This document shows positions 3,208 through 61,807 of a DNA stretch of 64,000 nucleotides, piece after piece. Origin of the DNA: a virus; IMG/VR virus record IMGVR_UViG_3300032322_002570, positions 1 through 64,000 of that record. One strand, 5' to 3'. How positions within the stretch are numbered: the first letter of the stretch is position 1; the number at the start of each line of letters is the position of its first letter. A program made the position numbers and the translations under genes. Below the pieces are notes generated by a model. It was not told the origin of the DNA and did not search any database. It worked only from the letters and a program-made list of their open reading frames with translations.

Positions 3208-3470
3208 AGAAGTTCATCGCGAATGGACTCGACGGCGCTGTACAGGACATAGCCCGCAGCGCATCCGACCGACAGATACCATAGCACGTCCTGGGCGCTG
3301 AGAGGCCCGCATGTGGTCGGCGTGTAGATCACGAGGTAAAACGGCAGTCCGAGCATGGCCACCAGGCGGGCGGCAGTGAAGACGGGAGTCATGGATCTAT
3401 TGCATGTTGTGCGGTTCAACAATACACCTGGGACCTCCCATGAAGGGGTATTGTCCGCTACCGCAGACAC
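3204..3470 (-). CDS. Small membrane protein, 88 aa, GTG start
   Basis: Hydrophobic segments VAMLGLPFYLVIYT and VLWYLSVGCAAGYVLY suggest two membrane helices. The GTG follows directly on the stop of the tiny upstream gene and has GAGGAGG eight bases ahead. The internal ATG at 3392 has no comparable ribosome-binding site. First of the three-gene membrane cluster. Confidence 0.6.
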   Translation of the reverse strand: MSAVADNTPSWEVPGVLLNRTTCNRSMTPVFTAARLVAMLGLPFYLVIYTPTTCGPLSAQDVLWYLSVGCAAGYVLYSAVESIRDELL

Positions 3471-8355: not shown

Positions 8356-8775
8356 GGGTCGTACCGATGAAGTTCCTCGAGCATAGCACCAAACCGCTTC
8401 TCGATGTGGCACGGGATGGCAGCCTGGGCCATTGACGCAGCCTTCGTACCAGAAGTGGATCCTGCAACCGGTTCCAGCCTCACCCTCCCGGTAGAAAGCA
8501 ACCTGCCGAGAACCCGGGTACCTCTTAGCAGCCTTCCTCAGGGTTTTGCCGGTGTTCTGAGCAGTGTCAACCACCAGGATGTCCCCTGGCGGGCAGTCAG
8601 CGATCTCGCCAAACGGCAGGAACGCCGCACCCCAGAGATGCGAAGCATAGACGCTGGCAATGGCGCCACTGCGCCCGGGGCCGGTGACAAAGAGCGGCCC
8701 GTCTTCAGAGGATGGCCTGAAGGTCCCCCTGAGGCTCCGGACGTACTTACGAAATTCGGGTTCGGTGATAATCAT
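8352..8775 (-). CDS. Phosphoribosyltransferase-like protein, probably frame-interrupted
   Basis: Type I phosphoribosyltransferase pattern: an N-terminal LFVTGPGRSGAIAS loop and the PRPP-binding signature ILVVDTAQNTGKTLRKA. Phage members probably act in base salvage, but the substrate is not readable. In the annotated frame the protein runs on as WYEGCVNGPGCHPVPHREAV into the DUF551-like gene. If one base is dropped at the CCC near 8414, the frame becomes CHIEKRFGAMLEELHRYDP and stops in a GTGA overlap with the next gene, which fits local gene architecture better. The length (424 nt) is one base over a multiple of three, as that model requires. Confidence 0.6.
8380..8388 (-). promoter_or_regulatory. 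Extended -10 promoter box TGCTATGCT
   Basis: 25 nt ahead of the GTG of the DUF551-like gene. It supports an independent start inside the longer open frame. Confidence 0.4.
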
Positions 8776-12386: not shown

Positions 12387-12836
12387 CTAGGTCTCGGGCA
12401 CGTCGGACAGGTAGATCATAACATTGTCCGGCAGACAGCGCAAGAGGGGCTCGACATCGGCCCACTTCAGGCGCCCATTGCCGACTCCGGGCGCGTTCAG
12501 GTGGAACCGCGTCTCCGGATGGGTCTTGGCGATCTCGGCAAGGCACTCTGCAGAGGCCTTGATCAGGGCACGGTCCGCCGGCTCCCGCCAGTGGTGCTTG
12601 ACCTGGAACCAGCCGATGTACTGCAGGCGATTGTCGTCGATCCGCAGGAGCGTGACCGGCTGATCGGTGGTGATCTGCTTGGCGACAGTGGGATAGCAGT
12701 CGCGGACCTGCTTGGCGGCACCACGACCCATCACGACCTCTCCACGGGAGTTGCGGATGGGGTTGCCCGTGAAAAGAAACACGTCTGGCAGTGCCCAGGG
12801 GGTGGAGTAGTCCAGTAGAGCGTGGATGACTTTCAT
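12387..12836 (-). CDS. Macro-domain-like protein, 149 aa
   Basis: Has macro-domain hallmarks: an N-terminal strand and glycine loop (FTGNPIRNSRGEVVMGRGAA) that would hold ADP-ribose, and a later NAPGVGNGRLKW loop and helix. Family members bind or hydrolyse ADP-ribose derivatives such as ADP-ribose 1''-phosphate, a by-product of tRNA end processing, or remove ADP-ribose from macromolecules. In this phage it could serve the RNA-repair set or counter host ADP-ribosylation; neither is shown. ATGA overlap with the gene upstream. Confidence 0.7.
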   Translation of the reverse strand: MKVIHALLDYSTPWALPDVFLFTGNPIRNSRGEVVMGRGAAKQVRDCYPTVAKQITTDQPVTLLRIDDNRLQYIGWFQVKHHWREPADRALIKASAECLAEIAKTHPETRFHLNAPGVGNGRLKWADVEPLLRCLPDNVMIYLSDVPET

Positions 12837-13264
12837 AGCTCGACGACTGTTGTCACCTCGTAGGAGCGGCCCCCGCCAAATGACGGGAAGTCATCCATGT
12901 CAATGGATACCACCCTGAGCCCGGTTCGAGCAGCGAAGTCGGTGACCAGTTCGGAGATCGCGTGATCCAGTTCTTGCTTAGTGGCACGGGCGGCAGGGAT
13001 TGTCGGTGGCGTGGGTGCCATCTCCTGGGTGGTCGGCTCGGTTTTCAGGTGGGTGATTGCCGGCAATGGCGACCAGTGGGTCGGCCCGAAGGAATGAGGC
13101 CAGCGCGCGAGGTGGCCGTCGGGCTCGCGCCAGACGCAATAAGGATCTGACGTGTAAGGCGCGCTCGACGGGGACGGCCTGACGTTGATCGCGATGGCGA
13201 TAAACATCCGCCTGTCGTCCGCTGGGAGCGTCTCGATGGGCAGCCAGCCCTGCTGCTCGGTCAT
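12833..13264 (-). CDS. DUF551-like protein with C-terminal extension, 143 aa
   Basis: TEQQGWLPIETLPADDRRMF ... HSFGPTHWSPLPAI is the DUF551-type pattern, second in this arm after 8.1-8.4 kb. A Thr/Pro linker and a helix-strand C-terminal domain follow. First gene of the leftward operon. The ATG chosen lies 26 nt after a TGCTATGAT box and about 85 nt after the conserved leader element. The ATG at 13294 falls on the box. Confidence 0.6.
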   Translation of the reverse strand: MTEQQGWLPIETLPADDRRMFIAIAINVRPSPSSAPYTSDPYCVWREPDGHLARWPHSFGPTHWSPLPAITHLKTEPTTQEMAPTPPTIPAARATKQELDHAISELVTDFAARTGLRVVSIDMDDFPSFGGGRSYEVTTVVEL

Positions 13265-13289
13265 GGCCTTGGGTGTTTGGATCGCGTAC

Positions 13290-13298
13290 ATCATAGCA
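13290..13298 (-). promoter_or_regulatory. Extended -10 promoter box TGCTATGAT
   Basis: 26 nt ahead of the first gene of the leftward operon, downstream of the duplicated leader. Confidence 0.5.
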
Positions 13299-13348
13299 CA
13301 AGCGCGACTCCTAGTGAACTCCTAATCTGCGCCAAATTGGGAGTTGGC

Positions 13349-13532
13349 CCAAACTGTATAGCGGCGAACATGAAACCGCTCTAACGCCAGTTTCCACGTT
13401 CCAACCTGCACAAAATATGTGCTCCAGCACATTTGCTACCCCCTTTTAGGATGCTACCAAACCCCTTGCGCCGCAAGGGTTCTCATGCGCCAAAAGGGGG
13501 GTTTCAATGTGCAGCCGTTCTTAGTAGTATTC
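13349..13532 (-). promoter_or_regulatory. Conserved ~184-nt leader element, copy A
   Basis: Read on the minus strand it aligns almost without gaps to the plus-strand sequence 61361-61543. Shared parts in order: GAATACTACTAAGAAC, CTGCAC, a hairpin CCCTTGC-GGC-GCAAGGG (13463-13479), an identical 32-nt block (13406-13437) holding the dyad ATGTGCT-GG-AGCACAT, and after an equal 61-nt spacing CGCTATAC and GTTTGG. It sits upstream of the leftward gene block as copy B sits upstream of the rightward one. Probable roles are a shared promoter/operator or a structured 5' leader RNA. Confidence 0.75.
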
Positions 13533-13999
13533 GGGATTGAAAGAATTGAGAAGAAGAAAGAAGTAACAGCCATAGATTGACTTAGATCTAAGAGTGTGTA
13601 GAAAGTGATCATTAGACCTACGTCTAATGATCACGTAAATACCCTTTCTCAATAACTAAAGAGTCATACTAGGGTAGATAGATAAGTCAACCTAATCAAT
13701 AATACCCTTAGGGTAGTACAGAGAATAATAGGTCTTCTTAAGAGTACCCTGAAGGTATTATATATATATCTACTATAGAGGGGCTGTTCCCTGGCTGTTG
13801 GGGCTGTTCCTTCCTTCTCTTTCAATTCCTACTACATAATCGACCCGCCGCCGAGCGGCGACGAGGCGCGTCTGATCGGTTGCTGCTGTGATGGACGCAG
13901 AAAACGAACCGGGAAGGTGCCTCGAGGGGGCGCGCTGTGGGATTCGATGTCCAAGGGCCTCCAGGGGCCTTCCAGGGGCTCCTGACAGCGTGCTTCCGA
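13533..13999. other. AT-rich control region, no gene seen
   Basis: About 470 bases without a convincing gene. Strongly AT-rich compared with the rest, with several TACCCT or AGGGTA half-sites (AATACCC TTAGGGTA is one mirrored pair), palindromes, a TATATATATA tract near 13760, and two GGGGCTGTTCC copies near 13790-13811. Candidate replication origin and/or regulator-binding array; the same AATAATACCCT string occurs in the region near 61.3 kb. Confidence 0.5.
13605..13634. repeat. Perfect 13-bp inverted repeat
   Basis: GTGATCATTAGAC, four bases, then its exact reverse complement. No T-run follows, so an operator or replication-protein site is likelier than a terminator. A second palindrome, CTTAGATCTAAG, lies at 13581-13592. 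Confidence 0.7.
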
Positions 14000-19418: not shown

Positions 19419-19885
19419 CGAACCGGTGCGACGTGATCAAAGCCCTCAGTGAGGGAGGGGTGCTGCCACTTTGAAACCATGTCCTCGAGGACGCCTTCGG
19501 GGACCGCTCGATCACCCCTGGCCGCATTGCGCCCCCTCAGGGTGTCGATGTCAGCCTCGAAATAGAGGCAGATCTTGGTGTAATCGTCCGGGAAGCGGTT
19601 GGCCTTCTTGATACGCGTCTCCGGCGTGAGGTTGGTCTGGTCCCAGACCACGCTGCGGCGAGAGCGCAGCATGAGCTCGATGTCGCGCTTCAGGAACTGA
19701 GTGGCGCTCTTGATCTGGCCTGCGAAGATCTCATTGTACGGCCTGTCGGAGATCCTGGCCGCGAGTTCGATGTAGTGGTCTGTCGATAGCAGTCCTGCGT
19801 TTTTGAACGTAGGGTCAGCCAGGATTGCGGCGGCGTGGGTCGATTTTCCGGACCCCGGCGGCCCGGCCAGCATGATCAGGAACAT
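19415..19885 (-). CDS. Polynucleotide 5'-kinase-type P-loop kinase, 156 aa
   Basis: Walker A AGPPGSGKST, a STDHYIE switch segment, VVWDQTNLTPETR (Walker B-like) and a lid RGDRAVPEGVL match the kinase half of T4 Pnk. It would phosphorylate 5'-OH ends of broken RNA for ligation. Encoded between the ligase and the phosphatase with 4- to 10-nt overlaps. Split kinase and phosphatase genes contrast with the single T4 protein. Confidence 0.85.
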   Translation of the reverse strand: MFLIMLAGPPGSGKSTHAAAILADPTFKNAGLLSTDHYIELAARISDRPYNEIFAGQIKSATQFLKRDIELMLRSRRSVVWDQTNLTPETRIKKANRFPDDYTKICLYFEADIDTLRGRNAARGDRAVPEGVLEDMVSKWQHPSLTEGFDHVAPVR

Positions 19886-21078
19886 CCTTCTATGATCCAG
19901 TCGTACTTCCGCAGTGTAGCAGATCTGCCGCAGGCCTGCAGGAGCCGCTCACGCAGGTAGTCGCCGGCCTCGGCCCCGTCCAGCATCGCAAAGAGCAGCG
20001 GCTGGATGAGAGGGGCCTTCTTCTTGATGGCTTGAGCCAAGCTCTTGCGCCGCCGCGCCGGATCCCCCGACTGGTCGGTCTCGCACAGGATCTCGTTCAG
20101 GGCACGCAGCGCGTGCATCCGCCAGGAGGCCACACCGCGATCAAGCTTCGCCTGGTACTGCAGCAGATCGTCGCGGCGGACCTTCGGCAGAAGGGGTAGG
20201 ATGTCGTCGAGTTGATCCTCCAGGATCGCCTTCGTGTGGGCCCTGCGCGTATGAAAGCCCGCCAGCACGCTGTGCTTGAACACGTAGTCGTCGGCCTTAA
20301 CCTTAAGCATCTCACCATTGTCAAACCGAACAACGATGCCCTCTTCGCCTAGACGTGATCGCACCTCGTTCACGAGTGCGTCTTTACGCGACGGATCAGA
20401 AGAGCCGGTCGACCAGACGACAGGGATGCCCCAGCGGTCCGCGACAGACCGCAGTGTCTGAATCCCGACGTAGTGGCCCGTGGTCTTTTCGCGGATCGCG
20501 GTCAACACCATTCGATCAACTGGGTAGTCAATCACGATCGGATCCTGGCGAGAGCACCACTCGAAGATCGCCGTCCTGCCCTCGCGGTCGAGCTCGAGCA
20601 TGAACTCGACGTAGGTGGGCCGACGTGCCAGGAAGACCTCGGCCCGCAGCGCGGTCTCGCTGATCCCGGACTTTGTGTGCAGCCTGAGGGCCCCGTTGAT
20701 CACGACCGGGAAGACCATCGATCCGTCCAGTTTCTCCAGGATCGAGTGCCCCAGCCCCAGGTCCACCACGGAAAGGTCGGTCTCTTCGCGCTCGTTGACG
20801 TTGAAGAACTTGTGGTACGGACGGGCGATGAGGCGCCCGGAGTCATCGAAGACCAGCCCTCGACACTCGCGGCGGATCAGCATGTTGTGCAGCCCGAGAC
20901 CCTCGTCGTACCCGAAGGTCTCAGGGTGTGCCACCATGTAGCGGATGACCTTGCAGCCGTCTCGCTCGAAGACGCGGAACTCCTCGCGTCCCTCAATATG
21001 AGGCAGTACATCATTGATGTGTTCGATGACCGGGAACGCCTGTTCCGGCGCTGCGGCGCCAACAACGGGGACTGACAT
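19876..21078 (-). CDS. RNA ligase, T4 Rnl1-like, 400 aa
   Basis: Nucleotidyltransferase ligase motifs are clear: RECRGLVFDDSGRL upstream, motif I EKLDGSM (catalytic Lys near residue 115), motif III IFEWCSRQD, motif IV EEGIVVRFDNG and motif V MLKVKADDYV. The C-terminal helical domain gives a length near that of T4 Rnl1. The reaction joins 3'-OH and 5'-phosphate RNA ends using ATP. Together with the kinase and phosphatase it would repair tRNA cut by host defence nucleases. TGATG overlap with the gene upstream. Confidence 0.88.
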   Translation of the reverse strand: MSVPVVGAAAPEQAFPVIEHINDVLPHIEGREEFRVFERDGCKVIRYMVAHPETFGYDEGLGLHNMLIRRECRGLVFDDSGRLIARPYHKFFNVNEREETDLSVVDLGLGHSILEKLDGSMVFPVVINGALRLHTKSGISETALRAEVFLARRPTYVEFMLELDREGRTAIFEWCSRQDPIVIDYPVDRMVLTAIREKTTGHYVGIQTLRSVADRWGIPVVWSTGSSDPSRKDALVNEVRSRLGEEGIVVRFDNGEMLKVKADDYVFKHSVLAGFHTRRAHTKAILEDQLDDILPLLPKVRRDDLLQYQAKLDRGVASWRMHALRALNEILCETDQSGDPARRRKSLAQAIKKKAPLIQPLLFAMLDGAEAGDYLRERLLQACGRSATLRKYDWIIEGCS

Positions 21079-27275: not shown

Positions 27276-30200
27276 CTAGGATACCCCCCGCGCCTCGTCA
27301 AGATCAGCCTTGAAGACGCAGGCGCCGTTTGTGCACGCGCCATCTTGCTGGGTCACGTTGTAGGCTGGATCGTCGTGGATCGACAGCGCTAGGCCGATGT
27401 CGTCCGTGATCCGCCGATCCAGCACCTCCTGATGCAGGCGCTCGTAGGTCTCGAGGTCGATCGGCTCGAACGGCATCCGTGGGAATGTCTGGGAGTCGTC
27501 GAAGCGGGCCAGCAGTGCTGCGGACATGTAGCCGCCGTCCTGTTGAATGTCCTGGTGGATCAGTTTCGCCAGGGTCTCGATCTCCGACTCGCGGATCTCC
27601 AGCGTTGCACTGGTGGTGTGGGTCGAGTAGTGGCGCTGGACCTGCATGTATAGCCCCCACTGGGCCTCGATGGGCAGCCGGCTCAGATCGTGCCTATCGC
27701 AGCCCTCCAGACGGGCCCAGGGCACCTCCACGGGGATCTCGACCAGCACCTCATGGACCCTGGGGTCGTTCACGTCGTCCAGCAGGCGCCCCTCGTCGTC
27801 ACGAGCCGACTGGGCAGGGATCACGCTGTAGCCGTAGTCCTTCAGGGCACCAACGATTGGGTCGGTCTTACTGAAGGTGATGCGGCGGATGAAGCGCTGC
27901 GCCTTGGGCGGATGCCAGCCCGGGCTGGCGCCGGTGAGCAGGCTCTTGGAATTGTGACTCACAATGGCCCCCTGGAAGTACCAGGAGTCGTCATCGTCAA
28001 CACCGCTCACGCTGAAGTCGTAGGTATAATCCGGCTCAGGATCCCGCTCCACTGACGAAACAGTAAACGGCGCGTAGCTAGAGTGCGTCATCTTGGCTGA
28101 ACGAAGAGGTCTTGCGCGACATTTTTCGCTGAACTTATTCAGGAAGTCCCTTGACTCCGGCAAGGTTGCGGCCCTCGACATGACAAGTGACCACATATCC
28201 TTCTCTTCCTGAAGACTTTGCCCCTGTGTATTATGAGACACGGTACAGCCAATCCCAACCGCTTCGGCGATTTGTTGAAGGTTTCGGATAAACGCTTCAG
28301 AGGCCATGTCAATCGAGAAGTGCCCTTTGGTTCTCACGCACCCATCGGTGTCGATAAGGCCGGCGATGAAGCCAAGTACGGACTCCCGAGAGGACACGCG
28401 GATCGCGAGCGGGACTCTTTCCAGCTCTTTACTCTTTCCCTTTTCAAAGCCGTTCAAGTGCATCCAGTCCCATAGCTGTCGAGAGGCAAGGCAGAACTCG
28501 GTCGTCCTCTCCTCGTCTCGAATGGTGCCAGCAAGCCCGAAAAGCTTTGAAGCCACTTCCCTGAGCCGTATGGTCACAGCGCTTCCCGCCGGCATTGAGA
28601 ACCGGATTCGATGACATCTCTCACTCATGCTGCCGTTACCGAACAGCGCTCCCAGGAAATACGCGAGGTCGGGCGACATGGTGGCTGGTGTGCTAATCCC
28701 AACCGACAGCAGTCCAAGCGAGTGCCCGGCAGATTCCCTACGAGCTTCCCTCGTGTACGCAAAAGCCTCCACCGGGATCAAGGCAGCCTCTGACGTATTG
28801 CGGTACTCTCCGAGTGAGTGCTGGATCCTTGACCCAGGCGCCAGGTCCTCGGCTCGACACCATTCGCCGCTCTCCAGCAGCAACCTGTGATCCGGCGTCA
28901 GACGAAGCACTCTCTTGTTTTTGAGTGTGACCCTGATGAGTTCCATCGGCTGGTTGGCGATCCCGGTCTCGGCACTAATGCCGCCTCTGACGCTAAGCCC
29001 AGAGACCTCTGTTTCACCGCTCCCGGGCTCGAGCAGATCGTCGGCGTACAGCAAGCCTTGGTCGAAGACTCTAAGCGCTGTCCTGTCGAGACAGCCTGCC
29101 GGCTGCACCGTGGTATAGCGGTTCGGGATGCGAATGCCCTGGGATAGGCAGTACGACCTGACCTCATCGCCGACGATGTTTCGCCAGTGGGTCAGGTACT
29201 GGCGCTCCGCTTCGACGAAGGCTCTGCCCTGCTTTGCGGGGCGACCATCCATCATCCACTGCAGCCAGGATTCGCCAAAGGCTGTCACAAAGAAGTCGAA
29301 CAGGCCTGTGAAGCTGACGCCGACGATGGGGTCGTTCTCGCGGCTGTACTGGAGGCGTTCACTCGGGAAGTGGTGATGAAGCAGACCAGCGACCTGAAGC
29401 GCGGCGGCGCGGAATGCGCGATCTTGCGCCGGCTGGTCGGAGGGTTCGATGCGGTTCAGGTGCACGTCCCCGAGGTTGCAAACATTGTCGCAAAGAAGAA
29501 TTTCCGCGCATTGGCCACTAACAATTCCACCCGTAAGTGTAAACGAATTATTAGTTGGGACAGTGCAGCAGTAAACGGCAGGAGCGATTCCGGCGTCCGT
29601 GACTGCAGACACTTTTAAGCCTTTGTACCTCATGTTATAGGCACAACGTCTATCAGAAAGGTCCTTCAGTCTAGTAAACTCTACCAGCCCAGCAAGCTTG
29701 ATGGCACCAGCCTGGCCGATGCTAAGCCGATGAGACTCTTTGTTCAGGCAGACGCCGCCCCTGTGCCCCAAGTCGTGATACCGAGCTGGGCGAGGGGGTG
29801 AGATTCTGAAGCGAATCCCAATATCGTGGAGCAGCAAGCCCAGTCCCTCCAGGAACTCCCTCGAGATCGAGACGATCTGATAGCCGTAGCCATTCTTTGA
29901 ATCCAGGGTCGTGCCATCAGCGTCGAACAGTCCCGCGATGAAGTCAAGCTGACACTGTCGAGTCCAGTTGTAGACCTCCTTGGGAAATTCCTTCTTGTAG
30001 ACTGAAACCCAGGGTGACAGGTCTTCTTCTAGCGATTTGCCTAGGTTCAGCAGGTAGCCAGCATCGGATAAGCCAAACCGCTCTCCGGTCACTCGGCCGC
30101 TCCGCGCGACGTACTTTTTAACTCCGATCTCTCGCTGTGACTCGACCAGCCTATCTACGCAAACATGCTTGGGCTCGTACACCTTGCAGACCGGTGTGAA

Positions 30201-31778
30201 CTGACTCTTGTTATAGGTCCCGTCCCCAACAAGAAAACCTTTGAGGTAAGCGCCATTAGCATGGACCTTACCGTTGACACGCTTTTCCGTGGACTTGAGC
30301 TGCATGCCAGGCTGGAGGTCTCGCGCCTCGATCCGCGTCCCGTCTTCTAAGATGAACGCGTGATACGGAGTGACGGTGTAACTAATTCCGCAATGGAGTT
30401 CAACGCGGACAACTGGCTGATCGGTTCCGGTTACCCTGAAGTTGTCAATTTTTACCCACCGGACACCGTCGAACACTTCAACCTCCCTGCCAACTAATGA
30501 CTCGATCGGGAAATGCCCCTGCCTTGTCATAACCATGGTCCCCGGGATAAGGCAGGGGTTCAATCCGTACCGGTGCATCCTGTGGTGGATGATCCGGTCA
30601 TTCGTGGGTTCGCCGACCTCTTTCGCGAGCGTCCTGATGTAGTTCGTCGCCGCAGTCTTGTCAGATCTATTGTACAACTTCAGGAAATGCTTCTTCTTGC
30701 CTGGGTCATCGAGCAGGTCGGCGTTTGCGCGCGCAATCGCCTCCGGCACATACTGGATCGCGCCTTCGCCACTGCCATGCTGCAGCGTCACTGCATCCAG
30801 GATCTCCTGGTACGTCGGCTTGTGATGCCAAGTCCGCGTGTGGTTCGCCATGCGAAGCGCCTCACGCTCCGGGTCCACGCTCCAATTACCATCCTCGTCT
30901 TGCTTGTATAGACCAAGCTTCGCGATTGCGGCCTCTTCGTCGTGCTCGCTGAACTGCCTCATACCCGCTGCGCGTCTAATGCTGCCGGCAACGACGGCGC
31001 TCGCAGCCTCGTCAATCAGCAGGCACGCCTCGATCGGCGTCAGCTTCCGCCCGTGGGCCTTCCCGAGCAGCGTCGTGACCCGCTCCAGGGTGGACCGAAG
31101 CTTAATCGGGTTCGACACCCCGCCAAACCCCTTCAGGCGATTTCCAGCCCCCCGCACGTGCGTCAGATCAATGTTCACGAAGACGGGCTCATCCTCTTCG
31201 CCGCCGACCTCGAGCAGCCCCATCGCTATATTGATCAGTCCCTGATAGGCGTCGACCCACCCCTGCCGGGAGTCGCCAACCGTGATGTCGACCGAGGTCG
31301 GATGAGTAAACTCGATCCCGGTACTCTCCTGCCCGCCATCGCTGTCGGGATCCTCCTTGACGGTCCCCAGCACGAGCTTGTGCTTGATCGGCGGAAGCTT
31401 GCCCACTACGTCCTGCTGGAGCACGGCGCCGGTGCCGGTACCGCACATGGCGAGCTCCATCAGTAGGCCGAACTGGGCCGGCTCATCGATGAAGCTCGAC
31501 TGGCAGTTGTAGAAGCCGTAGAAGTTCTCGGGCTGCCGGCTCCAGTCGGTGCCGCTGACCCAAAGGGCCCGGCCACTGGGGAAGGCCTGCTGCTGTAGGG
31601 CAGCCTCCAGGCAGAGTTCGCGCTGCTCTTCGGTGAAGGAGCCGACCTCCGCGATGCCATTCACGGCACGCGTCACGGCCTCAGTGAAGCTCTCCCGGGT
31701 GCCATCGTCTTTGCGACGGCTGTAGCTCCGATAGAAGACAGCAGGAGCACAGGGAGCGGACTCCAGGAAATCTGACAT
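27276..31778 (-). CDS. nrdJ: Class II (cobalamin-dependent) ribonucleotide reductase with two inteins, 1500 aa
   Basis: Without its inteins about 770 residues match the monomeric RTPR type: FPSGRALWVSG and NFYGFYNCQSSF at the N-terminus, a GTGTGAVLQQDV loop, the active-site CAEILLCDN, a PAG-SKSLLTG loop and a C-terminal cysteine pair CTNGAC. It reduces ribonucleoside triphosphates using a B12 radical, without oxygen. One intein sits just before the catalytic CAEI, the other within the PAG-S loop, so both must splice out for activity. The start is taken at MSDFLES; a TAGAAT box lies about 45 nt upstream. Feeds dNTPs to phage replication with dUTPase, ThyX and the dNMP kinase. Confidence 0.9.
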   Translation of the reverse strand: MSDFLESAPCAPAVFYRSYSRRKDDGTRESFTEAVTRAVNGIAEVGSFTEEQRELCLEAALQQQAFPSGRALWVSGTDWSRQPENFYGFYNCQSSFIDEPAQFGLLMELAMCGTGTGAVLQQDVVGKLPPIKHKLVLGTVKEDPDSDGGQESTGIEFTHPTSVDITVGDSRQGWVDAYQGLINIAMGLLEVGGEEDEPVFVNIDLTHVRGAGNRLKGFGGVSNPIKLRSTLERVTTLLGKAHGRKLTPIEACLLIDEAASAVVAGSIRRAAGMRQFSEHDEEAAIAKLGLYKQDEDGNWSVDPEREALRMANHTRTWHHKPTYQEILDAVTLQHGSGEGAIQYVPEAIARANADLLDDPGKKKHFLKLYNRSDKTAATNYIRTLAKEVGEPTNDRIIHHRMHRYGLNPCLIPGTMVMTRQGHFPIESLVGREVEVFDGVRWVKIDNFRVTGTDQPVVRVELHCGISYTVTPYHAFILEDGTRIEARDLQPGMQLKSTEKRVNGKVHANGAYLKGFLVGDGTYNKSQFTPVCKVYEPKHVCVDRLVESQREIGVKKYVARSGRVTGERFGLSDAGYLLNLGKSLEEDLSPWVSVYKKEFPKEVYNWTRQCQLDFIAGLFDADGTTLDSKNGYGYQIVSISREFLEGLGLLLHDIGIRFRISPPRPARYHDLGHRGGVCLNKESHRLSIGQAGAIKLAGLVEFTRLKDLSDRRCAYNMRYKGLKVSAVTDAGIAPAVYCCTVPTNNSFTLTGGIVSGQCAEILLCDNVCNLGDVHLNRIEPSDQPAQDRAFRAAALQVAGLLHHHFPSERLQYSRENDPIVGVSFTGLFDFFVTAFGESWLQWMMDGRPAKQGRAFVEAERQYLTHWRNIVGDEVRSYCLSQGIRIPNRYTTVQPAGCLDRTALRVFDQGLLYADDLLEPGSGETEVSGLSVRGGISAETGIANQPMELIRVTLKNKRVLRLTPDHRLLLESGEWCRAEDLAPGSRIQHSLGEYRNTSEAALIPVEAFAYTREARRESAGHSLGLLSVGISTPATMSPDLAYFLGALFGNGSMSERCHRIRFSMPAGSAVTIRLREVASKLFGLAGTIRDEERTTEFCLASRQLWDWMHLNGFEKGKSKELERVPLAIRVSSRESVLGFIAGLIDTDGCVRTKGHFSIDMASEAFIRNLQQIAEAVGIGCTVSHNTQGQSLQEEKDMWSLVMSRAATLPESRDFLNKFSEKCRARPLRSAKMTHSSYAPFTVSSVERDPEPDYTYDFSVSGVDDDDSWYFQGAIVSHNSKSLLTGASPGWHPPKAQRFIRRITFSKTDPIVGALKDYGYSVIPAQSARDDEGRLLDDVNDPRVHEVLVEIPVEVPWARLEGCDRHDLSRLPIEAQWGLYMQVQRHYSTHTTSATLEIRESEIETLAKLIHQDIQQDGGYMSAALLARFDDSQTFPRMPFEPIDLETYERLHQEVLDRRITDDIGLALSIHDDPAYNVTQQDGACTNGACVFKADLDEARGVS
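27951..29093 (-). other. Intein 2 in ribonucleotide reductase, 381 aa
   Basis: Inserted in the VQPAG^SKSLL loop. Begins CLDRTALRVFDQG, block B LTPDHRLLLESG, two LAGLIDADG motifs (FLGALFGNGS, FIAGLIDTDGC), and ends GAIVSHN followed by Ser, the canonical splice junction. Carries its own endonuclease, so it can home into intein-free reductase genes. Confidence 0.9.
29511..30554 (-). other. Intein 1 in ribonucleotide reductase, 348 aa
   Basis: Inserted between NP and CAEI of the active site. Begins CLIPGTMVMTRQGHFPIESL and has the VTPYHAFIL block B. Two LAGLIDADG-type motifs (LKGFLVGDGT, FIAGLFDADGT) indicate a homing endonuclease domain. Ends TGGIVSGQ followed by Cys: a terminal Gln with Gly before it, instead of the usual His-Asn. 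Gln-ending inteins are known, for example in an iridovirus ribonucleotide reductase, but are rare. Splicing is therefore plausible but not assured. Confidence 0.88.
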
Positions 31779-31825
31779 TGATAGGCAAAGCAAGAGTTAG
31801 TCTTCCGCTTTCGCGGGCGTCGATT

Positions 31826-36049: not shown

Positions 36050-36669
36050 TACTCTTCAATTTCGAACTCGTATGGGTCTTCACTCTCGTTGAGCTCTTCG
36101 ATTCGGACCTTCTCAACCTCCTCTTCGACAACGCTCAGGAGCTCGTTGACTCCCAGGGCCGCGCCCCATGATTCCCTGGACTGTTCATTCAGGCCAGCAG
36201 CAGCCCGCAGCAGGCCGCCCACCAGGCTGATCGGGATCTCTTCGTCATTCTCCTCTGCCTTTGCAATCCGTTTCCCCAAGACGCGCACCAGGTCTTCGGA
36301 GACCCGGGACATCATCCTGGCCTGGCGTTCAGCGGCGTTTCTGAACTCGACAATCGATTGCTTGTGCTGATTGCGCTTGTCGTTCTCCGTCTCGCGCATG
36401 GCGAGGGCCATTTGTTGTTTATCCCAGGCAGCAGCCCGCCGCTCCCATTGGAACTTGTGAGCCCACTTGACAACAGTGGCCGGCGAGTGCCCACGTTCCT
36501 CCGCCACGCGCTGCAGGCTACGCTTGCCAGCAAGCTGCACATATAACTGAAAAGCCGCGTACTGATCAGCGGACTCATGCTGACCAGCACGCGCCACCTT
36601 GTAGCCGCGTCTGAAGTTGTAGATCGGACCGGGCGTTCGCGGCGGTGGCTTAGCCTCTCTGAACTCCAA
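36049..36669 (-). CDS. Terminase small subunit-like protein, 206 aa
   Basis: N-terminal helix-turn-helix (LQRVAEERGHSPATVVKWAH, KFQWERRAAAWD) followed by a long helical domain (ENDEEIPISLVGGLLRAAAG) and an acidic C-terminus. Immediately upstream of the large subunit, with TGATG-like coupling. It would recognise the packaging site. Confidence 0.7.
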   Translation of the reverse strand: MEFREAKPPPRTPGPIYNFRRGYKVARAGQHESADQYAAFQLYVQLAGKRSLQRVAEERGHSPATVVKWAHKFQWERRAAAWDKQQMALAMRETENDKRNQHKQSIVEFRNAAERQARMMSRVSEDLVRVLGKRIAKAEENDEEIPISLVGGLLRAAAGLNEQSRESWGAALGVNELLSVVEEEVEKVRIEELNESEDPYEFEIEE

Positions 36670-36713
36670 ACCTGACCATTGCCGGGGTCAGGCTATGGTT
36701 CCAAAACGCAGTT

Positions 36714-37316
36714 CTAGGCGAACCACTCGGATCCTTCCAGCCAGTTTACCGCTAACTGATGGATGTGCGCGTGGTACTCTTCGATGGTACCATTGTTTTC
36801 AACGTCAACCGAGATAATACGAGGTAGCGAGATGTAGCCACGACTGTCGCCAGCATACGTCTTGCCATCCCTGTGTACGCGCACCAGGAGGACATTGTCT
36901 GCGCCGAACTGGTCGATGATCGGCAGCGCTTCGGACGCGAAGCCACTGTCGCTGCAGACAACCAGACGCGACAGGAAGGAGCGCCTGCGCAGGCGTCGTG
37001 CCGAGAGTTTGCCGAAGATCGCCTCGTCTGCATGGAACCACTTGGCCCAGTCCTCGCTGAGCGAGATCTGCGCCTCGACGTAGCTCTTGCCGAACAGCAG
37101 GTCGCTCGGCTGCGTCTTGATCGACTCGAGGTGCGCGACCTCCTCATCGGTTAGGTCGTAGAAGACCTGCACGGCGGCCTTGAGTGGCTTGCTTTGCTTA
37201 AAATGCGATGCCCCCAGGGCTTTCTCGCAATAGAGAGCAGCGGTGTCCTTGCCGCTGTGACGCGGACCGTTGAAGAAGATGACGCGGTGGTCGGACAGTG
37301 ACTCAAGTGCGGTCAT
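36714..37316 (-). CDS. Deoxynucleoside monophosphate kinase-like, 200 aa
   Basis: P-loop FFNGPRHSGKDTAALYCEKA at the start, then SFLSRLVVCSDSGFASEALP and NVLLVRVHRDGKTYAGDSRG; matches phage dNMP kinases of the T4 gene 1 type. Converts dNMPs to dNDPs. The open frame extends far upstream, but the ATG with ATGA overlap begins the domain. Completes the nucleotide set with the reductase, ThyX and dUTPase. Confidence 0.75.
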   Translation of the reverse strand: MTALESLSDHRVIFFNGPRHSGKDTAALYCEKALGASHFKQSKPLKAAVQVFYDLTDEEVAHLESIKTQPSDLLFGKSYVEAQISLSEDWAKWFHADEAIFGKLSARRLRRRSFLSRLVVCSDSGFASEALPIIDQFGADNVLLVRVHRDGKTYAGDSRGYISLPRIISVDVENNGTIEEYHAHIHQLAVNWLEGSEWFA

Positions 37317-37974: not shown

Positions 37975-38047
37975 TGGGGGTCGCGGGGATCGAACCCGCC
38001 TTCGCGGCGTTATAAGCACCGAGCATTCTCCAGATTGCTAGACCCCC
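37975..38047 (-). tRNA. tRNA-Ile (UAU)
   Basis: Complete cloverleaf: 7-bp acceptor stem GGGGGTC/GACCCCC with discriminator A, D arm with GG loop, 5-bp anticodon stem CGGTG/CGCCG around CTTATAA (anticodon UAU, reading AUA), and T arm GCGGG-TTCGATC-CCCGC. The 3' CCA is not encoded. It would help translate AUA, a codon that is rare in GC-rich hosts. Confidence 0.88.
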
Positions 38048-51341: not shown

Positions 51342-51350
51342 GGAATACTA
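51342..51350 (+). promoter_or_regulatory. Candidate late promoter GGAATACTA (5 of 6)
   Basis: 33 nt before the next virion gene. Confidence 0.5.
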
Positions 51351-57951: not shown

Positions 57952-58352
57952 GACAGACCTGGGATGCTCTCCACGACGCCGCGTAGGTAGGCGTGCACCC
58001 GGGCCGGCTCCCAGCCGTGCTGGTTTACCAGGACCATCCCGATCTGGTTCAGGGCCACCGTGTGGCCGACCGTCCAGAGGCGACGCTGGATGGCGTCGTC
58101 CCTGATAACGGAGGCCTGCTGGATCACGCCGAGTTCCGACAGGTCTTGGCTCTGCTCGGCAAGCAATCGCGAGTGTTCAGCCCTCTCTCGATCCAGGGCG
58201 AACATCAGCCACTTGGCAAACGCCTGGATGCCAGCAATTAGCGCACCGAAGAAGAGTGACGTGACTGCAGAGACCGCGCGATGCAGCATGATCAGCAGCA
58301 GGATCAACGACCCAAAGATCGATCCGACGGCCCTGAACAGAAAAGCTCTCAA
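57900..58352 (-). CDS. Membrane protein after the helicase, 150 aa, TTG start
   Basis: RAFLFRAVGSIFGSLILLLI, MLHRAVSAVTSLFFGALIAG: two membrane helices, then a soluble helical part. TTG has AGGAGG at nine bases and overlaps the helicase stop by TTGA. Role unknown; last gene of the replication operon. Confidence 0.65.
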   Translation of the reverse strand: MRAFLFRAVGSIFGSLILLLIMLHRAVSAVTSLFFGALIAGIQAFAKWLMFALDRERAEHSRLLAEQSQDLSELGVIQQASVIRDDAIQRRLWTVGHTVALNQIGMVLVNQHGWEPARVHAYLRGVVESIPGLSYDAGEDEESGGEEASV

Positions 58353-60133
58353 TTCAACAGCCTCCTGGCCTTCACAACGGCGGGATGATTGATGGTATCG
58401 TCGCCCTTGAGGGTGCACGTGTTGTAGTCGATCTGGATGATCGAACGGTCCACGCTTCCGCCTCTGACGGGTCTCATGGTAGGGTTCCCGCTGGCGTCGC
58501 TACCCCAGATTATCTGGCCCTCCCTGACCTTATCGTGCCAGATTTCTATCATGTTTTCGGACGGTTCTCCGCCCTGTACTGGGCGCTTCCTGCACAGCCA
58601 GACGCAGTGCGCATTATGCGCAAGCACGTCGGTGCCTCTGATCTGTGACTGCGTTGGTGGCGGTGGCTCTTGTCCTTTTGCCCAGTACGTGGCATCATCC
58701 AGCTTTTCCCTATTCATTTGGCAGGTCAGGATCAGGTCGACGGCTAATTCTTTGCAGACAGCGTCCAGGATCTCGGCGCGCTCTGACAGCATCGCCGTCT
58801 CGTCCCTCGGGGCGCCCTTGTGTCGCTTGATCGCATGGAAGTGGTCGATGACGACCACACGCAGCTCTGGACGACGTGCCTTGATCACCCTGATCGACTG
58901 TGCTATGGCATGTGCGCACGGCTTCTGAGGCGCCTCCGTCAGAAGCCGGCCACCGGACGCCTTCATCTCTTCAGCCATCGCCATGAGTACCCTCTCGAGG
59001 CCGGGCTTCGGCAGCAGCCTGTGGTAGATCAGTTCGGTTGCATCCACGTAGCCAATACCGTCAGAAGCGTTGGACCAGTGGACGCCGGAAACTCCAACCG
59101 TCTTCCTGACCAGCGATGCAAACAGGCGTGCCTCCGTCGCCTCTCTTTCGAGCTCGGCGGAGATGAAGGCGACCGTCGCGCCACCAAGGACGATCGATGT
59201 GGCAGCGTGCGAGGCCAGGGCCGTCTTGCCGACTGCGGGCCTAGCAGCCAGCAGCAGCATGCGATACTTGTGCTGCGCAGGGCCGTGCGGCATGACGCCT
59301 CCACCGCAGTCCAGGTCCATCGCGTAGACGCCAGTAGAGATGGGGCGCTGGGGTTTACGTTCTTTCATAATCGAATCGATCCAGTTATCGGCACCGTCGA
59401 CCGGTTGGCCGACGATGGAGTCGATCGCGTCAACGAAGCGACCTTGGGAGCCGATCGTGCCGCGAACAATCCCAAGGCACTCGGTTGAACGGTGCTGTAG
59501 AAACTCCAGCGCGTCCTCAAGTTTGGACTCGGCGCGAATGTTTTGCTTGGCGACGTGCAGCGTATCCAGGTACAGGGCCCTGACGCGAAAGCGCTTCAGC
59601 ACGTCGAGCGCGGTGTCCCACTCGGTGTCCGGGTCGCCATAGGACTCCATCAGGGATGGGTCTGCCAGTTCGTGGATGGCCTGGCTGAAGTCCGTGACAG
59701 GGACGATCCTGGAGGCCTCCTGGCGCATCGTGTACGCCACCGCCAGGGAGTCTCTGGAGATCACGCTGGTGTCCGACTGGCCGATGAAGACCATGTCTAT
59801 CTCGTGGGCGATGGCTCTAAATCTTGCGTCGCTCCACAGGACGGGCGGTACTGACTGGTCGAGCATCACGCCGAAGGCGGATCTAAGGGCAGCCCAGAGC
59901 TCACGGGCACGCGCCGAGGAGGACGCCAAGACGCGGGACAGGACGATCGCCTCCTGCGGCGTCGTGTCTTCGCGCTCCTGGACGCTGCTGGGTTGTAGCT
60001 TGTCGACAATCCTGGCAACCTCCATCGCCGACAGGTGGCCGCCGTCGGAGGTTGATCTCAGGCCGTGTTCCGTCTGCTCCAGCAGCCCAAGCTCGATAGC
60101 CTTCTGGATGTAGTACGGAAGTTCTTCACTCAT
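58349..60133 (-). CDS. Replicative DNA helicase, DnaB-like, 594 aa
   Basis: RecA-type core: Walker A LLAARPAVGKTALASHAATS near residue 300, FISAELEREATEARLFASLV, Walker B LRVVVIDHFHAIKRHKG, and TCQMNREKLDDATYWAKG with the arginine-finger region later. Long N-terminal domain. Unwinds DNA ahead of phage replication; works with the primase. Confidence 0.88.
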   Translation of the reverse strand: MSEELPYYIQKAIELGLLEQTEHGLRSTSDGGHLSAMEVARIVDKLQPSSVQEREDTTPQEAIVLSRVLASSSARARELWAALRSAFGVMLDQSVPPVLWSDARFRAIAHEIDMVFIGQSDTSVISRDSLAVAYTMRQEASRIVPVTDFSQAIHELADPSLMESYGDPDTEWDTALDVLKRFRVRALYLDTLHVAKQNIRAESKLEDALEFLQHRSTECLGIVRGTIGSQGRFVDAIDSIVGQPVDGADNWIDSIMKERKPQRPISTGVYAMDLDCGGGVMPHGPAQHKYRMLLLAARPAVGKTALASHAATSIVLGGATVAFISAELEREATEARLFASLVRKTVGVSGVHWSNASDGIGYVDATELIYHRLLPKPGLERVLMAMAEEMKASGGRLLTEAPQKPCAHAIAQSIRVIKARRPELRVVVIDHFHAIKRHKGAPRDETAMLSERAEILDAVCKELAVDLILTCQMNREKLDDATYWAKGQEPPPPTQSQIRGTDVLAHNAHCVWLCRKRPVQGGEPSENMIEIWHDKVREGQIIWGSDASGNPTMRPVRGGSVDRSIIQIDYNTCTLKGDDTINHPAVVKARRLLN

Positions 60134-61098
60134 CGCGCTCGTCCTCTTGCGTTGTCGTCGTCGTAGGCGGGAGCCGGAGGGTCAACTTCCGGGTTCAGCG
60201 TCGGGTCGGGCCAGGCACAGTTGGGGACCTGTGGGAAGCGGCGCCGGAGGCGTTGGGGGTCGAACCCGGCGTCCAGCACGGCCTGGCAAGCGTTGACGAC
60301 GCGAAGCTTGTGGCCCTGTCTCACGGCACCGAGGTCGAACGCCTGAGCATAGGCGAACTGGGCTGCGATGTACTCACTGATCACGGGGCGCAGGTGGCCA
60401 GGGTAGACCGTGTGCTTCAGCCTTGGGGCGGCACGCTCTGGCTTCGAGCCCGAGGCGGCGCCCTTCTCGTACAGGCTCAAGACGTTGGCCCGCTTGCGGT
60501 CGGTCGGACGGTTCAGGCCTGTGATCGACGCCAGGGTCTTGTTGCTGTTCTGCTCAAGCCAGAACTCGGACGACTCGACGCCAACCGCTATCCCCTGGAA
60601 GAAACGCTCGTAGTCGTAGGGCTCCAGCCCAAGGTCGCTCATGTGACTGTTCACCGCTTTCGCCAGGCTATCCGGCACGACCCGGAGGCTCGAGTAGCCC
60701 AGGGGCTTCAGGCGGTTCCAGGCATCAGCAAGCTCCGCCTTCGGGTCCCTTCCGGAGGTCAGCAGTGGCGCCGACACAGCCAGGCTGCTCTCGAGGTTGA
60801 ACCGCAGGAACTTAGCGGCCCTGGTGAGCGGCTGGAGCTCGATCCTGGTGGCGGAGATCATCCTGACCAGCCCCAGGTCTCTCAGGTCGCGCATGGCGGC
60901 CTGGCGTGAGTTCCGGTGCAGCCCAACCAGGGCGTCAAGCTCGGCGCCGCCATGAAGCTCGTCGGTCCCCAGCAGGATCAGCGAGATCAGTAGGAGCTTC
61001 GGGACAGGCCTGAGGTCCGGGCAGTAGGCGACCAGGCGCATGATCGCGTTGTCCGGTTCGTGGTGCCAGTCGACGGCGCGACAGACGCTGAAGGGCAT
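60130..61098 (-). CDS. Replication-initiator-like protein, 322 aa
   Basis: KLLLISLILLGTDELHGGAE, LDALVGLHRNSRQAAMRDLR, DLGLVRMISATRIELQPL read as a winged-helix domain; the C-terminus (VVNACQAVLDAGFDPQRLRR) is helical. Located just ahead of the helicase and beside the AT-rich island, so an initiator or helicase-loader role is likely but inferred. ATGA overlap with the helicase; a TGCTATGGT box lies 21 nt ahead. Confidence 0.55.
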   Translation of the reverse strand: MPFSVCRAVDWHHEPDNAIMRLVAYCPDLRPVPKLLLISLILLGTDELHGGAELDALVGLHRNSRQAAMRDLRDLGLVRMISATRIELQPLTRAAKFLRFNLESSLAVSAPLLTSGRDPKAELADAWNRLKPLGYSSLRVVPDSLAKAVNSHMSDLGLEPYDYERFFQGIAVGVESSEFWLEQNSNKTLASITGLNRPTDRKRANVLSLYEKGAASGSKPERAAPRLKHTVYPGHLRPVISEYIAAQFAYAQAFDLGAVRQGHKLRVVNACQAVLDAGFDPQRLRRRFPQVPNCAWPDPTLNPEVDPPAPAYDDDNARGRAR

Positions 61099-61118
61099 GG
61101 GGGCTCGGCGAGGACTGA

Positions 61119-61127
61119 ACCATAGCA
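61119..61127 (-). promoter_or_regulatory. Extended -10 promoter box TGCTATGGT
   Basis: 21 nt ahead of the replication-protein gene. Confidence 0.45.
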
Positions 61128-61151
61128 CCTAAACGCACCCTGGCGGTCGGC

Positions 61152-61196
61152 GGGTCGTCAGTGGGACGGTTTACAGGGTGTCTGCCGGGTCGTCAG
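61152..61196. repeat. Direct repeat GGGTCGTCAG x2
   Basis: Two exact copies (61152-61161, 61187-61196) beside the replication gene. Possible binding site for the initiator; too few copies to call a classic iteron array. Confidence 0.45.
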
Positions 61197-61360
61197 AAAG
61201 AGGGGTGTGTCTTGGGACATTAAGAATGTATTCGGGAGAACTACTACCTAGAAGAACTACTACCCTTAGATAACCTATAAGGGAACTATACACTTTTAGA
61301 CAATAATACCCTATAACGCAGTAATATACTCTTCTTATCTTCTAATGTTTCTTATATCCT
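61197..61360. other. AT-rich control region, no gene seen
   Basis: AT-rich sequence with TACCCT and CCTATAAGGG half-sites and the string AATAATACCCT shared with the 13.5-kb region. Flanked by divergent operons (replication leftward, exonuclease rightward). Candidate second origin or operator region. Confidence 0.5.
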
Positions 61361-61543
61361 GAATACTACTAAGAACAACTGCACTTATGAAACCCTCGAA
61401 AAACGCATCAGAACCATTGCGCCGCAATGGGTTTACCCAGGTCGAAAAAGGGTCAGCAAATGTGCTGGAGCACATATTTTGTGCAGTTTTCACCTGGCTG
61501 CAATGGCTTTCTGGTGGCCAGTGTTCATCGCTATACCGTTTGG
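61361..61543 (+). promoter_or_regulatory. Conserved ~183-nt leader element, copy B
   Basis: Plus-strand counterpart of copy A. Hairpin CCATTGC-GCC-GCAATGG at 61414-61430 (the third pair is A-T here, C-G in copy A, a compensating change), identical 32-nt block at 61455-61486 with dyad 61460-61475, and CGCTATAC/GTTTGG at equal spacing. It ends 12 bases before the first gene of the rightward operon. Confidence 0.75.
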
Positions 61544-61555
61544 AGCCCGAAGCCC

Positions 61556-61807
61556 ATGATTGGTGAAGAGCAGTTCCGCGAGGACTACGAGGAGATTGGC
61601 CGCAGCCTGTGCGGCGCTTTCGAGGACAAGGCCATGACCTGGACTCAGATCTGCGACATCACTGCCGCACTGGGACACCAGCCCGGGGACACTCAGCTCT
61701 GGCTGCGCTACTACCGCGCCGAGCAGAAGGGTGAGCCATTGCCATCGCTGAGCCGCAATCCGGAGAGGCGTCGGCGCCGCGCGCGCAAGAAAGCCGCCGG
61801 GTCGTGA
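61556..61807 (+). CDS. Hypothetical basic-tailed protein, 83 aa
   Basis: IGEEQFREDYEEIGRSLCGA, AMTWTQICDITAALGHQPGD, WLRYYRAEQKGEPL, then an Arg-rich end (RRRRRARKKAAG). Possibly DNA-binding. The longer upstream frame overlaps the leader element and is not used. First gene of the rightward operon. Confidence 0.6.
   Translation: MIGEEQFREDYEEIGRSLCGAFEDKAMTWTQICDITAALGHQPGDTQLWLRYYRAEQKGEPLPSLSRNPERRRRRARKKAAGS

Follow-up and report, generated by a model that had tools for sequence, protein, structure and literature searches.

Organization of the locus

The DNA analysed here (the window, 64,000 nucleotides) is part of a 73,855-base IMG/VR virus record, IMGVR_UViG_3300032322_002570. Its terminase is 54–55% identical to those of the Synechococcus phages S-CBS2 and S-CRES1–3, and the window is therefore assigned to a phage of the cyanosiphovirus type. 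Another contig (G001) shares 47 kb of identical sequence with the record and extends 5.4 kb past its right end without reaching the left end. The terminase–sigma–primase–RNR–portal block (window 1–42,600) appears to be inverted relative to the structural genes when compared with S-CBS2 and S-CRES. The phage also carries a 1505-residue ribonucleotide reductase ORF with extra helicase/endonuclease-like stretches and possibly at least one intein (27276–31793), a tRNA-Ile gene with anticodon TAT (37975–38047, minus strand), an RlaP-like member of an RNA-repair nucleotidyltransferase family (1223–1969), an RNA ligase-like ORF (19876–21078) and a dCTP deaminase-like ORF split by an intein with an HNH endonuclease (L013:4086–5807; genome 67586–69307).

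Two copies of an element, e1 and e2, are present in the window. The genome has two low-GC stretches that stand out above all others, and each copy abuts one of them. The copies and their surroundings are as follows.

13342–13532, minus strand: copy e1, putative promoter box and predicted structured leader (BLAST match to e2 within the genome with E = 1.2e-23, alignment; fold z = -3.6 for the surrounding 206 nt)
61361–61550, plus strand: copy e2 (BLAST match and alignment to e1; identical copy in contig IMGVR_UViG_3300033571_024885)
13533–13860: AT-rich island preceding e1, containing five TACCCT/AGGGTA sites, the 13-bp palindrome TACCCTAAGGGTA, TATATATATAATA and an inverted repeat with 13-bp arms at 13605–13634
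61195–61360: AT-rich island preceding e2, in which the TACCCT site and the ACTACTACC repeat each occur twice
12833–13294, minus strand: first ORF downstream of e1, 153 residues, no family match
12387–12836: next ORF of the e1 operon, phosphatase-like (PHROG 335)
61556–61807, plus strand: first ORF downstream of e2, 83 residues, resembling (by eye only) the first ORF of the kin contig L018
61835–62560, plus strand: exonuclease (RNase_T/DnaQ-like) in the e2 operon
60130–61128, minus strand: replication-initiator-like gene with a winged helix, divergent from and adjoining e2
58349–60133, minus strand: DnaB-like replicative helicase, following the initiator-like gene

Further along, the e2 operon encodes an annealing-protein-like ORF (a sub-threshold match), a sigma factor and an SSB, so that e2 is located between the first gene of this operon and the divergent winged-helix gene. 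The sigma factor is recognized by region 2 matches; another sigma-type protein, scoring below the curated cutoff, is encoded next to the terminase. No relatives of the first gene of the e1 operon were present in the collection searched. The preliminary description of this DNA had placed both copies ahead of divergent operons; e2 does lie at a divergent gene junction, but e1 does not, since its flanking genes both point left.

Sequence conservation and distribution

The two copies were first delimited as minus 13532–13349 and plus 61361–61543, with one base of difference in length. Both statements are correct, and the alignment can be extended to 13342 and 61550, giving 127 identical positions in 191 columns. 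Conservation is concentrated in blocks: the first 16 columns (16/16), a 32-nt block in the middle, AGCAAATGTGCTGGAGCACATATTTTGTGCAG (32/32, as originally reported), and the terminal TGTTCnnCGCTATACnGTTTGG (19/22). The invariant middle block contains a predicted hairpin, P4.

13406–13437, minus strand: invariant 32-nt block with hairpin P4 (AUGUGC-UGGA-GCACAU) in e1 (alignment)
61455–61486, plus strand: the same block and hairpin in e2 (alignment)

The 61-nt tail, which had been described as gap-free, can indeed be aligned without gaps, but only 30 of the 61 positions (49%) are then identical, the 19/22 end block included; this alignment is unlikely to match homologous positions, given that the hairpin there is shifted by ∼3 nt on its 5′ side. 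A leader peptide was rejected: no shared reading frame was found by inspection, and the differences between the copies have no 3-periodicity, i.e. no coding pattern. Self-BLAST revealed no other dispersed repeats in the genome.

Sequences homologous to the element were not found in Rfam, phage records, IMG/VR patterns or the kin DNA scanned. No part of the window matched Rfam at the gathering threshold, and a permissive threshold gave only chance-level matches (E of 8–10). Pattern scans of IMG/VR (32-nt block, box and tail) and of GTDB genomes (block) returned a single near-identical contig, a distant BLAST search of the element against phages gave chance matches only, and neither ∼0.8 Mb of DNA from the kin nor 12 additional records contained a match to a covariance model. 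The model was built on two sequences and the database scans were pattern-based, which limits the reach of this absence. Two loci found through the second gene of the e1 operon (L071 and L072) do not carry the element either. The preliminary description had counted a lack of the element in related phages against its proposal, and the kin do lack it; this distribution makes the element lineage-specific rather than spurious.

A simple sequence duplication or an assembly artefact without function would also account for an element found in no other virus, of which e1 is known from one contig only (e2 also occurs, 100% identical, in a second contig). We regard this as extremely improbable. The remainder of the element has diverged to about 50–60%, yet the 16- and 32-nt blocks have not changed at all, and both copies keep their context of AT-rich island, promoter-like box and downstream ORF; moreover, the copies produced by an artefact would be near-identical rather than 67% identical.

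The promoter-like box

Each copy starts with the same 16 nucleotides, identified as a putative promoter by motif comparison.

13517–13532, minus strand: the invariant e1 box, GAATACTACTAAGAAC, a putative phage promoter with GAATACTA as its −10-type motif
61361–61376, plus strand: invariant box GAATACTACTAAGAAC of e2, putative phage promoter

The GAATACTA within the box matches a promoter-like motif that is concentrated ahead of genes in the S-CBS2/S-CRES group. In S-CRES3, [AC]ATACTA lies 5–60 nt upstream of a same-strand CDS start in ten of 16 cases (4.8% expected), and the top upstream 7-mers include GGAATAC, GAATACT, CATACTA and AATACTA. The enrichment is weaker in S-CBS2 (6/15, 3.9% expected), where CATCCTA (7/9) is even more concentrated upstream of genes. 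Besides the two boxes, the window has the motif as GGAATACTA at 51343 and 54745, in each case a short way ahead of an ORF of the structural half. The suggestion that the box contains a late-promoter-like AATACTA is thus supported, as a promoter-like motif, by its enrichment upstream of kin genes; the designation of the two operons as early was not borne out, the motif being of the kind found ahead of late genes in the kin.

Since the motif falls within the 16-nt start, the rest of the element is probably transcribed as a leader. In S-CRES3 the homologous site has the motif ∼20–30 nt before the first gene, and here the element would therefore sit between promoter and gene. A leader in this position is the simplest reading of the element.

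Predicted fold

A consensus fold was calculated with RNAalifold and evaluated by counting pairs in both copies. It consists of a three-way junction, in which P1 closes a P2–P3 arm and hairpin P4, followed by a further hairpin, P5.

13406–13514, minus strand: predicted three-way junction of e1, with P1 (CUGCAC/GUGCAG) closing the P2–P3 arm and hairpin P4
61379–61486, plus strand: predicted three-way junction of e2, with the same pairs
13463–13479, minus strand: hairpin P3 of e1, also a 17-bp dyad, CCCTTGC-GGC-GCAAGGG
61414–61430, plus strand: hairpin P3 of e2, also a 17-bp dyad, CCATTGC-GCC-GCAATGG
13366–13401, minus strand: predicted hairpin P5 of e1, downstream of the junction (10/500 shuffles as stable; sequence unlike that of e2)
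61491–61523, plus strand: predicted hairpin P5 of e2 (19/500 shuffles as stable)

The consensus pairs occupy columns 19–24/122–127 (P1), 32–36/90–94 (P2), 52–60/64–73 (P3) and 101–106/111–116 (P4). All 26 are formed in both copies, and sliding one partner by 1–3 columns reduces the pairs formed to 27–52%; with the 3′ letters shuffled, 60 of 500 trials did as well as the real alignment. Three of the 26 show double changes, one of which, in P2, depends on the alignment register, leaving two to three compensating pairs. When only the variable columns were permuted, the fold had p = 0.004, or p = 0.021 with the palindromic P3 pair held fixed. This permutation is a fairer test than the comparison with shuffled alignments, against which the core has z = -7, much of it contributed by the conserved palindromes. 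P5 is formed in both copies from nearly unrelated sequences and includes G–U pairs. A hand-made structural alignment of the tail gave z = -8.7 and was discarded as circular. Taken alone, e2 folds no better than shuffled sequence (z = -0.5) and its minimum-energy fold differs from the consensus, and in e1 the consensus is ∼3 kcal/mol less favourable than an alternative in which the P1 arm pairs with that of P4. The reverse strand of the core folds about equally well. A structure in the single strand is moderately supported overall. The selection on the paired shape that had been proposed for the element agrees with the 26/26 pairs and the permutation result, but the covariation, drawn from two distinct sequences, is modest.

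Several other roles for the fold were considered. A bistable switch was rejected, the alternative pairing being favoured in e1 and not in e2; a terminator or attenuator is weak, with only AUUUU after P4; and RNase III processing is not argued, the RNase III annotation of S-CRES gp1 being unsupported by Pfam.

The difference between CCCTTGC/GCAAGGG and CCATTGC/GCAATGG is as originally described, and the compensating change is real. P3, however, is also a perfect 7-3-7 DNA palindrome, and therefore its pair alone does not prove an RNA. Repeats of the protein-binding type with the same 7-3-7 geometry occur at the equivalent site in several kin, for example GTGGACA-AGG-TGTCCAC and TACCCAA-CCG-TTGGGTA. 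The element could accordingly be read as a double-stranded DNA-binding region, a phage-specific repeat by which the initiator (60130–61128) marks two origins, as the iterons of the kin would. P3, P4 and an overlapping GCACA-TATTT-TGTGC would then be protein-binding dyads, and the compensating change would keep the dyad symmetric. The far-apart arms of P1 and P2 and the sequence-divergent P5 would be unexpected for protein-binding sites, and each copy has one 7-3-7 dyad rather than an array of 3–7. This reading is a possible but rather doubtful one, and the layout of the kin genomes bears on it further.

Islands and paired sites in the kin

TACCCT is the most repeated 6-mer across the two islands, with seven copies (0/1000 shuffles). 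The e1 island also contains a perfect inverted repeat, GTGATCATTAGAC-GTAG-GTCTAATGATCAC (13605–13634), which the e2 island lacks.

At least five kin genomes (S-CRES1/2, S-CRES3, G002, G004 and, weakly, G006) have a pair of sites with shared phage-specific repeats beside AT-rich DNA, one adjoining an initiator-like gene and the other ∼26–29 kb away; for G006 the spacing is counted the shorter way round, if the genome is circular. S-CBS2 and the fragment G003 each have only one repeat cluster. The clearer pairs are located at the following positions.

3232–3357 and 31505–31665: S-CRES1/2 (locus L007)
3260–3327 and 29694–29781: S-CRES3 (locus L009)
8571–8661 and 36653–36766: G004
29658–29771 and 335–691: G002

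The kin counterpart of the e2 site has phage-specific, mostly palindromic repeats that recur at the second AT-rich site. No gene directly follows the second site in S-CRES2 or S-CRES3, where it occupies a long gap, and the site therefore does not resemble a mere operator. Copy e1 resembles the second kin site in position, lying beyond the portal gene in the reading direction of the portal by ∼12 kb (8.5 kb in S-CRES2). The iteron clusters of S-CRES1–3, S-CBS2 and related contigs thus share with the e2 site the location between the divergent initiator gene and the first gene, the AT-rich stretch and the promoter-like motif, and in most genomes examined they are likewise doubled at a second site. 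They differ in being short, mostly palindromic DNA repeats on the rep side, with neither a structured leader nor the element sequence.

For the DNA-binding alternative, it is relevant that rep-adjacent and second sites share a phage-specific repeat in these kin, that the main sequence common to both sites here is the element, and that the neighbouring gene encodes a winged-helix protein. Against this, the element lies beyond the AT-rich stretch and promoter, whereas the repeats of the kin are located on their rep side; the element is not detected by the repeat profiles of four kin genomes; and the rep-side TACCCT repeats provide another iteron candidate.

In SPP1, the initiator G38P binds two distant repeat-plus-AT sites, oriL and oriR (PMC6316719, PMC3485210). 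The two strongest AT-rich islands, joined to e1 and e2, form a similar pair of distant AT-rich sites that share sequence; one is beside the gene for a putative origin-binding protein (the winged-helix gene adjoining e2), with the DnaB-like helicase next, and in SPP1 too one site is in or beside the initiator gene near the helicase gene and the other in a long noncoding gap. The same layout is found in the kin, with a spacing of 26–29 kb compared with 12–13 kb in SPP1. Unlike SPP1, the sites described here, which are known from sequence alone, have a foldable promoter-leader in common and no evident repeat array: arrays at both sites are clear in the kin, whereas the window has only the TACCCT sites (five and two) and single dyads. 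By analogy, the islands are probably paired origin/control sites. An earlier suggestion that the element is a replication element is consistent with its location and with the resemblance of the islands to the paired origin sites of the kin, but was not borne out for the 183-nt element itself.

Possible alternative functions of a leader transcript

An RNA from the box could also prime or regulate replication at each island, as a primer RNA or through an R-loop. The origin-like site, next to genes for initiator and helicase, does combine a promoter-like box, an AT-rich stretch and a predicted structured RNA. Such a transcript would, however, run away from the AT-rich island and not through it, and the origin-type sites of the kin have no such RNA; we consider this origin-linked role very unlikely.

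In the coliphage HK022, each of the two early promoters is followed by one of a pair of related putRNAs, putL lying immediately after the start (PMC9378689). Two leader RNAs acting in this way would let RNA polymerase read long operons by processive antitermination, and the two related, structured leaders predicted here, which head two oppositely oriented operons near their putative promoters, match that layout as far as sequence can tell. The size, architecture and host differ. A putRNA is ∼70 nt long with two stem-loops, whereas the leader would be ∼180 nt long with a closed three-way junction and a hairpin, and terminators to be read through are not in excess: each downstream operon has five terminator-like sites, compared with 8.0 and 7.0 in shuffles. 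Rho appears to be absent in cyanobacteria (PMC7843447), the presumed host group. Because of the few terminator-like sites and the lack of Rho in this group, antitermination is not supported and is quite improbable.

Proposed function

Computed directly from the DNA are the duplicated element and its promoter-like motif, its conserved potential for pairing, the AT-rich islands, and the arrangement of paired sites in the kin. The explanation that we consider to be the best, and which we hold tentatively at somewhat short of even confidence, is that each copy is a promoter and a ∼180-nt leader RNA leaving one of two origin-type control islands. The two AT-rich islands would be paired, probably as origin/initiator sites of the SPP1 type, and each copy would form the outgoing side of its island. 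The phage-type promoter (GAATACTA) would be followed within a few bases by a 5′ leader folding as the three-way junction and P5; this leader would stop ∼50 nt short of the first gene in e1 and directly ahead of it in e2. The promoters would be in use and the islands would be origins; the leader would act as RNA, in cis and after initiation, on translation, stability or elongation. Since both transcripts would carry the same leader, a single cis-acting control would be common to the two operons, and a protein or RNA polymerase may recognize the invariant 32-nt block in both.

The position after the box, arms paired over 50–100 nt and the sequence-divergent P5 favour an RNA leader; the geometry of the P3 dyad and the DNA repeats of the kin at these sites keep the DNA-binding reading alive. 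The preliminary description had offered a leader RNA or a dual promoter/operator among its readings. The duplicated promoter-plus-leader arrangement, the selection on pairing and the promoter-like motif agree with it, tempered by the modest covariation.

The searchable literature yielded little on replication start or operon control in cyanosiphoviruses of the S-CBS2/S-CRES group, and the comparison provides testable sites for both, in the form of paired islands of phage-specific repeats, an SPP1-like two-origin layout in cyanobacterial phages, and of a promoter-like motif. The duplicated structured leader at both islands is a candidate for joint control of two operons. It might conceivably represent a new class of phage RNA, a ∼180-nt three-way-junction leader at each of two paired origin islands that would tie the adjoining operons to each other and to replication, although we regard this as unlikely.
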